IMG/VR virus record: IMGVR_UViG_3300033141_002596
Span: 1 to 29,834 of that record
DNA: 29,834 nt
DNA from: a virus
Strand: one strand, 5' to 3'
Shown: positions 21,055 through 22,268 of the stretch, in pieces
Numbering within the stretch: position 1 is the stretch's first letter
Layout of the letters: each line of letters opens with the position of its first letter
Position numbers and translations under genes: made by a program
The notes under the pieces: model-generated
Seen by the model: the letters and a program-made list of their open reading frames with translations, nothing else
Databases searched by the model: none
What the model was told of the DNA's origin: nothing

Positions 21055-21103
21055 TTTTATCATCCTTTTTATAAAAATAGAATATATAAATTCTTACCAT
21101 ATA

Positions 21104-21193
21104 ATGCCTCGCCTCACCCCACCTTATCGTACCAAACCGGACATTGCCTTATCCCACCACACTTGACCTTATCCCTTCCCACCAAACCGCACT
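21104..21193 (-). repeat. Degenerate pentamer array 1 (18 units, GGTNN)
   Basis: Read on the minus strand from 21193, the sequence divides without gaps into 18 five-base units such as AGTGC GGTTT GGTGG, then GATAA GGTCA. Position 1 is G in 15 of 18, position 2 is G or A, position 3 is T or C in 17, and positions 4-5 vary freely. It begins four bases after the stop of the 88-aa gene and ends in the leader of the primase-like gene. No open frame runs through it. Confidence 0.85.
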
Positions 21194-21196
21194 CTA

Positions 21197-21463
21197 TTAT
21201 TTCTTTGCATCTGGCAACATTTTCGGCAATGTTGCTCTTATATATCTCTCTCTTATTTCGGGATTTGTGAAAGCCATACCTATCATCTTCAATTTTTGGT
21301 CAATGGCTATTCTATCGTTTACCATGTATGAATGTTTTACTCTCAATGCAATATTTGCCTTTTGATATAATCTGCCGAATTCTTTTGCTTCGCATTTTCT
21401 TGCATCTGCATCTAAAAAATCCATAATTGCCTTGTCTGATTTTTCAAGCATTACATCATTCAT
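21197..21463 (-). CDS. Hypothetical protein enclosed by pentamer arrays, 88 aa
   Basis: A small helical protein with a mixed charge pattern: IMDFLDADARKCEAKEFGRL, then NIALRVKHSYMVNDR and NPEIRERYIRATLPKML. It has one Cys and no zinc motif or membrane segment. AGGAGGATTATT directly precedes ATG 21463. I recognise no family. What is odd is its position: repeat arrays lie about 30 bases upstream and four bases downstream of it. It may bind the repeats, or simply have been spared between them. Confidence 0.65.
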   Translation of the reverse strand: MNDVMLEKSDKAIMDFLDADARKCEAKEFGRLYQKANIALRVKHSYMVNDRIAIDQKLKMIGMAFTNPEIRERYIRATLPKMLPDAKK

Positions 21464-21493
21464 AATAATCCTCCTATTTATATAATTTTTAAT

Positions 21494-21563
21494 AACGCAA
21501 ACATTACTTTACCTGACCGAATCATACCACACCGAACCCAATTTAACCACACACGGCCTTGCC
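21494..21563 (-). repeat. Degenerate pentamer array 2a (14 units, GGTNN)
   Basis: From 21563 on the minus strand the units run GGCAA GGCCG TGTGT GGTTA and so on to GCGTT at 21494, with 13 of 14 having T or C at position 3. It ends about 25 bases before the ribosome binding site of the 88-aa gene. It is separated from array 2b by an AT-only stretch of about 40 bases (21564-21605) that contains AATATTTATTATT and AAAATTTT. Confidence 0.83.
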
Positions 21564-21605
21564 TCTTTTAATATTTATTATTCTTTTAATAAAATTTTTA
21601 TAATT

Positions 21606-21705
21606 AATCCTTGCCTCGCCACATTGAACAGCACCTCACAAGACCTCGCCAGATCATACTTTATCAGACCATACTCGACCTGACCTCACCATGCCTCACC
21701 AGATT
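21606..21705 (-). repeat. Degenerate pentamer array 2b (20 units, GGTNN)
   Basis: From 21705 on the minus strand the units are AATCT GGTGA GGCAT GGTGA and so on, 20 in register with no insertion. Position 3 is T or C in 19 of 20. GGTGA and GGCGA recur, but neighbouring units differ, so this is a period-5 pattern and not a simple tandem copy. It starts ten bases after the stop of the RAMP-like gene. Confidence 0.85.
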
Positions 21706-21714
21706 GAATATTCT

Positions 21715-22248
21715 TTATTTCTTCTTCTCCTCAAACTTTGATACAAAAAACCTTCCGAATCTTGGTCTATAACTCCCAAGACCTATTTTGACACCAGCAT
21801 ATTTCAAGGCTTCCTCTATCAACTGCTTCTGCAAATCAATCAATATCATCGTACCACTTATTTTCCACTCTTTCAATACTGGTCTATAGCATATCACAAG
21901 TGTTGTCTTTTCACCTTTCCCCCTTATGACTGGCCTTTCGTCGATAAAATCATACTCTTTCTTTCCAGTTAGAAAATATTCTTCCTTGAAAAATAGTCCC
22001 GCCATAATTTCCCTTCTCATCGGTTTTGCTTTGCCTCTTGGTGCTAAATTGCCAACCGCTTCTCTTATAGCAGCCAATAACATTTCACTTGTTATACATA
22101 TGTATCCGTCTTTATTTCTATGGCATTTCCTTTCTGCTTGTTCTCTATAACCTTCTTGAGTTTTTGGTGCTTTTTCGTCTATATACTTATTAAACATTAT
22201 TGGTGATAATGACTCTATTGTGAAATCTACTTCTATTTCTTTAAACAT
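21715..22248 (-). CDS. Stand-alone RAMP-like protein, 177 aa
   Basis: The start is ATG 22248, six bases after AAGGAGG; an ATG two codons earlier touches the ribosome binding site. The N-terminus has a strand FKEIEVDFTIESLSPIMFNK like the first strand of ferredoxin-fold RAMP proteins, and the C-terminus has a Gly-rich loop IGLGSYRPRFGRFFV (about 155-169) like the loops of Cas5/6/7 and Csm3. Its middle has WKISGTMILIDLQKQLIEEA, a strand plus helix. No cas gene or CRISPR is near. Short phage proteins with a 'GlGs.RprfGrf' end occur near recombination genes; RNA or single-strand DNA binding is likely but unproven. Confidence 0.6.
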   Translation of the reverse strand: MFKEIEVDFTIESLSPIMFNKYIDEKAPKTQEGYREQAERKCHRNKDGYICITSEMLLAAIREAVGNLAPRGKAKPMRREIMAGLFFKEEYFLTGKKEYDFIDERPVIRGKGEKTTLVICYRPVLKEWKISGTMILIDLQKQLIEEALKYAGVKIGLGSYRPRFGRFFVSKFEEKKK

Positions 22249-22268
22249 AATCATCCTCCTTAATTTTA

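Follow-up and report, generated by a model that had tools for sequence, protein, structure and literature searches.

The DNA analyzed here, a 29,834-nucleotide stretch referred to below as the window, almost certainly holds a VIPR locus of a tailed phage, a diverged example of the kind described in 2026. This assignment follows from the match of the neighboring protein family to PDB entry 36pp and from the agreement of the locus with a preprint of April/June 2026 (PMC13142463). VIPR stands for Viral Interference Programmable Repeat and, according to this preprint, designates a CRISPR-like system directed against competing phages. In its account, Vipr is an ancestral RAMP protein which binds vrRNAs made of alternating GGY and NN elements, with 9-16 such repeats followed by a 3' tail, which in members of the SUSP1 clade is a pseudoknot. 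DNA is recognized through the NN pairs, one base being skipped each time, usually that at the wobble position of a codon. Seven types of VIPR are reported, accessory vap genes are typical of these systems, and RNP formation, the skip rule and repression were demonstrated for SUSP1 and P. fulva. This newly reported form of RNA-guided DNA recognition is proposed to predate CRISPR. A sequence-only reading of the window had known of no described element with such a structure; the preprint describes one. The anatomy, the protein pairing, the hypervariability and the pseudoknot presented below were found independently of it.

Anatomy of the locus

The 29.8-kb record is part of a tailed-phage genome, with terminase, portal, capsid and tape-measure genes. 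The locus of interest (Table 1) comprises, in order, RecT, an exonuclease, the RAMP-like gene, arrays 3 and 2, an 88-aa ORFan, array 1 and a CHC2 primase-like gene, followed by helicase-like, SbcC-like and RusA genes. The genes from RecT to RusA and the arrays are all on the minus strand, and the arrays therefore lie on the coding strand. The RAMP-like and CHC2 primase-like flanks recognized by the sequence-only reading are both confirmed, the former by its PHROG match (Table 1) and the latter with an E value of 3.8e-10.

Table 1. Position of the VIPR components in the window
Feature	Positions	Strand	Description
vipr	21715-22254	(-)	179-aa solitary Cas7-fold (RAMP) protein, phrog_4652 E 4e-10
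vrRNA array 3	21611-21705	(-)	18-19 GGYNN units; 57 bits; sense strand of vipr
Linker between arrays 3 and 2	21564-21610	(-)	AT-rich, at the position of a vrRNA 3' tail
vrRNA array 2	21499-21563	(-)	13 units; 40 bits
88-aa ORFan	21197-21463	(-)	between arrays 2 and 1; vap position of other VIPR loci
vrRNA array 1	21094-21193	(-)	20 units, last 2-3 degenerate; 60 bits

A run-scan with a GGY-position matrix delineated three GGYNN arrays on the minus strand, of about 18, 13 and 20 units. They score 40-60 bits, far above the best of 100 Markov shuffles of the whole window (19 bits), a score that is mildly circular since the matrix (G/A, G/A, T/C at positions 1-3) was set by eye on these very arrays. 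In unrelated genomes, this matrix likewise distinguishes arrays from shuffled sequence. Outside the three arrays, the best run in the window reaches 17.5 bits, and an exact search of the whole record for RRYNN x8 detected only arrays 2 and 3, on the minus strand only, the reversed control giving none. The degenerate five-base arrays announced by the sequence-only reading are thus real, and clearly so by the comparison with shuffled sequence that it had itself named. Its three blocks stand, while its 52 pentamers are counted here as 51-52, and the block that it placed at 21104-21193 corresponds to an array which runs about 10 nt further, to 21094. Array 3 starts 10 nt past the vipr stop codon; its 18 units occupy 21611-21700, and an extra unit, AATCT, fits 21701-21705.

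The description of positions 1-3 as nearly fixed and of positions 4-5 as free holds in the window and in 359 unique arrays from related loci, where G is found at position 1 in 95% and at position 2 in 92% of cases, C or T at position 3 in 96%, and positions 4-5 are near-uniform. By composition, the window arrays combine hypervariable NN with conserved GGY; their register is kept and few units are broken. The claim that they do not constitute a microsatellite is upheld. Tests of slippage and of exchange between arrays gave weak results (33 adjacent identical units against 27 expected, and 15 shared three-unit words against 8). Array folding is slightly weaker than that of NN-shuffled controls (mean z +0.36). 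Folding of the window linkers is not superior to that of shuffles, no stable 3' tail structure being predicted, and vrRNA tails differ between VIPR types. Rfam matched nothing in the window, so that neither a hammerhead nor any other known RNA family is recognized there.

The window Vipr possesses a C-terminal glycine-loop motif (GLGSYRPRFGRF), an open frame and the invariant residues of its family. Its AlphaFold2 model (pLDDT 93.7) is closest, among PDB folds, to Csm3 and type VII Cas7, the backbone proteins of types III and VII, with a Z score of 12.9 over about 160 residues. As a single-sequence query the protein retrieved no relatives from IMG/VR, and it was matched by neither Pfam nor NCBIfam; its relatives were reached by profile searches. 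The family profile, in which the window protein is included, matches one PDB sequence, that of 36pp, entitled "SUSP1 Vipr protein", with an E value of 1.6e-42. In many relatives a conserved gene, phrog_5926 or phrog_15946, accompanies the RAMP gene and lies downstream of it in 61 of 62 pairings. The model of phrog_5926 shows a helical hairpin and a part that may be a winged helix, and a fold search with this vap-like partner produced weak winged-helix matches only. Both vap families are absent from the window and from all members of the 20-member clade (support 0.98) to which its Vipr belongs. The 88-aa ORFan shows no similarity to these two modelled families, no match in PHROG or Pfam and, as a single-sequence query, no relative in IMG/VR.

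With the published VIPR systems the window shares a homologous single RAMP and several sense-strand, non-coding GGY/NN arrays in one phage-borne locus. It differs from them by the lack of a phrog_5926 or phrog_15946 vap gene, by the lack of a predicted pseudoknot tail, by arrays of 13-20 units (18-20 for two of them) against the 9-16 reported in the preprint, and by its location in a recombination-replication module. The Cas7 fold and the repeated binding of a guide RNA are also common to Class 1 CRISPR-Cas systems (Csm3/Cas7, types III and VII), from which the window is nevertheless distinct: a tandem-repeat scan detected no CRISPR direct repeats with spacers, no other cas gene lies beside the arrays, the neighbors being phage recombination and replication genes, and the units are of 5 nt with three fixed bases instead of 6-nt segments.

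For the window itself, we infer the activity of the VIPR system, and its targets, along the following lines. The three arrays would be transcribed in the sense direction into vrRNAs, on which Vipr is expected to assemble with one subunit per GGYNN unit, holding GGY and presenting NN. The NN pairs would jointly base-pair with DNA, every third base, usually the wobble base of a codon, being skipped, and this binding would repress transcription in a competing phage or mobile element. The sequence-only reading was right to suggest a protein in contact with nucleic acid every five bases, which proves to be the neighboring RAMP, and its "assembly site for a filament" comes near the mechanism published in the preprint. 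The spacing by half turns of a double helix that it also invoked finds no support.

Arrays and RAMP proteins in phages and bacteria

The association of the arrays with the RAMP gene extends well beyond the window. A search of IMG/VR with the GGYNN x8 pattern returned at least 120 loci. Among the matches listed, 97 passed an array threshold of 28 bits; 72 of these 97 contain a RAMP homologue, mostly no more than a few hundred bases away, and in 70 of the 72 the nearest array lies on the RAMP strand. Conversely, all ten isolate phages chosen by RAMP similarity, which are Gordonia, Mycobacterium, Escherichia, Pseudomonas and cyanobacterial phages, carry arrays. The RAMP profile yielded 25 bacterial loci; in 17 of them an array outscores all shuffles, and in a further five a weak array lies just past the RAMP stop codon. 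In 13 whole phage genomes, all nine-unit matches fall at the RAMP-array locus, and the reversed pattern gave none. The pattern is thus present beside RAMP homologues, as the homologous-locus comparison named in the sequence-only reading asked. The role that this reading envisaged for the CHC2 gene is unsupported, neither arrays nor a RAMP homologue being found in any of 26 loci with CHC2 relatives, and these relatives were dropped as a lead.

The arrays display further variations among other phages. In L050, L081, L109, L131 and L157, successive arrays are register-shifted by one base and end with GGCAG, with no hairpins between them; they are possibly the staggered arrays of the preprint (PMC13142463). 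Very long arrays of more than 140 and about 280 units were observed in two phages, L055 (6301-7010) and L103 (7605-9177); RusA-like or comparable recombination genes lie close to them. In the Mycobacterium phage Brocalys (L157), one in-frame TGA was counted in the vipr match (record positions 32924-33487), which is nonetheless mostly covered by an open frame. Stem-loops separate the arrays of L036, L047, L144 and L188, with stems that vary within a genome and yet still pair.

In Felixounavirus genomes, each array has a long hairpin on its 5' side and a pseudoknot on its 3' side. In 13 distinct tail sequences, 99% of the cells pair, against 28-44% in slid controls, and eight of the nine tail pairs, with the pseudoknot helix among them, vary on both sides; these sequences are related and were gathered by eye, so that the counts do not represent independent events. 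The bracketing hairpins and the covarying pseudoknot indicate that the arrays act as RNA. The arrays themselves are hypervariable: when one slot is compared among 20 different Felixounavirus genomes, the arrays have an identity of 0.60, against 0.58 for a random-order control, and the 150 bases beyond this slot are 98% identical (median). One VpaE1 array is matched at 95% or more in two other phages only, and 230 records share its locus. Between VpaE1 and CL1, a homologous array shows five differences, all at position 4. In phage wV8 (L165:1201-1258 and 2594-2651), the "DR_4" direct repeats of the original annotators cover conserved array flanks.

The one-base-skip code and other readings of the arrays

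The one-base-skip code comes from the preprint (PMC13142463), and an independent computational check of it is provided here. Guides whose NN copies the first two codon positions of their targets should have NN frequencies that resemble those of these positions. Over 88 loci, the correlation is 0.67 with codon positions 1-2, against -0.18 with positions 2-3 and -0.22 with positions 3-1. Once single-base composition is removed (sense strand), it amounts to 0.72 for positions 1-2 against 0.33 and 0.46, and the order of the frames was kept in 300 of 300 bootstraps of a strand-averaged version. Targets can moreover be read directly. A 12-unit stretch of the vrRNA of a P. entomophila prophage (L193:7192-7281), read with one skip and up to two mismatches, detected 20 sites distributed over 19 of the 299 Pseudomonas genomes searched, one site matching at 24 of 24 bases; the reversed pattern and a two-base skip both gave none. 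The four sites that were read lie in tape-measure-like genes of Pseudomonas prophages, where most of the other units also match. Under the same rule, a second Pseudomonas vrRNA (L188) had no match in the 299 genomes. For the window, seeds of eight units taken from its three arrays had 8, 24 and 5 matches in IMG/VR, which is a weak search; none of these 37 extends convincingly past chance, and the ORFs checked are unrelated. No self-target was found in the window under the code. An earlier judgement of our own, which rejected a discontinuous NN guide as physically implausible, was wrong.

These results bear on other ways of understanding the arrays. TRAP sites are (G/U)AG repeats with 2-nt spacers. 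They are likewise degenerate five-base RNA repeats, fixed at three positions and free at two, and the window arrays lie within or beside the operon, so that one could envisage a protein which binds GGYNN RNA in the leader of its operon to control expression, with no guide function. Such TRAP-like autoregulation is nevertheless very unlikely: the protein has the fold of Cas7, to which that of TRAP is unrelated, and NN is not neutral, as it follows codon positions 1-2 and, elsewhere, encodes real targets. Hardly any credit can be given to the arrays being a DNA element, namely an origin, a packaging site or a recombination site to which the RAMP or recombination proteins would bind. The location between the RecT/exonuclease and primase/helicase genes, in a replication-recombination region, is what recommends it, and the sequence-only reading had proposed an origin or recombination element. 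This proposal is unsupported and already largely refuted: the cassettes of other phages lie among tail genes or beside repressors, the strand of the arrays is fixed to that of vipr, and the Felixounavirus arrays are bracketed by RNA structures.

A VIPR system that became inactive in the window phage, with the protein and the arrays persisting as relics, is more likely than these two readings, even if it is improbable. In its favor, neither a vap gene of the two modelled families, nor a folded tail, nor a target was found. Against this stand the open vipr frame with its invariant residues and the arrays, which are still in register with few broken units.

Probable orphan anti-vipr guides in Felixounavirus

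The vipr-vap cassette is missing from about half of the Felixounavirus-like records, and those that were read retain one or two arrays; in five vipr-less genomes checked, phrog_4652 is found nowhere in the genome. The possible targets of such arrays were investigated by comparing 62 distinct arrays, under the one-base-skip code, with genes for vipr, vap and ligase; the match counts of orphan arrays leave aside the constant units at either end. Strong matches to the vipr gene of relatives were obtained for three of the 62, those of Felix O1 (L166, 20/20), L176 (86,231 bp, 16/16) and JH2 (L175, 17/18), which match neither vap nor ligase. All three genomes are vipr-less and have a single array, and none of the 45 arrays of VIPR-positive genomes reached p<0.01.

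A follow-up test was performed on five more vipr-less single-array genomes, LF82P3, SPT-1, LNA1, D1-2 and radambza. LF82P3 and SPT-1 (the records L255 and L258) match at 20/20 the same vipr site as Felix O1. Another vipr site is shared by LNA1 (L259, 20/22) and D1-2 (L257, 18/22), the latter being the weakest match, one base over the best of 500 shuffles. The single array of radambza (L256) is unmatched to vipr. A vipr-matching orphan vrRNA is thus present in seven of eight vipr-less single-array Felixounaviruses, at four distinct vipr sites. With a skip of 0, 2 or 3 bases instead, no more than 10-17 bases match. The LF82P3 array differs from that of Felix O1 only at GGY bases, the NN string being identical, and the orphan vrRNA genes of Felix O1 and JH2 are preceded by a promoter-like sequence and have both a 5' hairpin and the pseudoknot tail. 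Six vipr-less Felixounaviruses with two arrays (L168, L169, L170, L177, L181 and L186) were also considered, and neither array clearly matches vipr in any of them.

On sequence grounds, a vipr-less phage likely turns the Vipr of a rival on the rival's own vipr gene. The orphan vrRNA would probably constitute a guide-only countermeasure against VIPR: on co-infection, it would be loaded by the rival's Vipr and silence vipr, a hijacking that we infer. It is possible, instead, that the orphan guides are the relic of a self-regulation, and yet no VIPR-positive genome contains such a guide (0 of 45 arrays). The main text of the preprint (PMC13142463) reports vrRNAs directed against other VIPR systems in a Pseudomonas clade and vrRNA-bearing satellites; orphan anti-vipr guides go beyond this main text. 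A comparable situation is found with the RNA anti-CRISPRs (Racr, PMC10651486), which are also lone, phage-borne, guide-like RNAs without an effector. Racr mimic CRISPR repeats, whereas the orphan vrRNAs would redirect the Vipr of the rival to its own gene.

The window represents a deeply diverged VIPR, from a clade without the two modelled accessory genes, and could show the minimal needs of such a system. Felix O1, a classic phage, offers a directly testable case of guide-only counter-VIPR.
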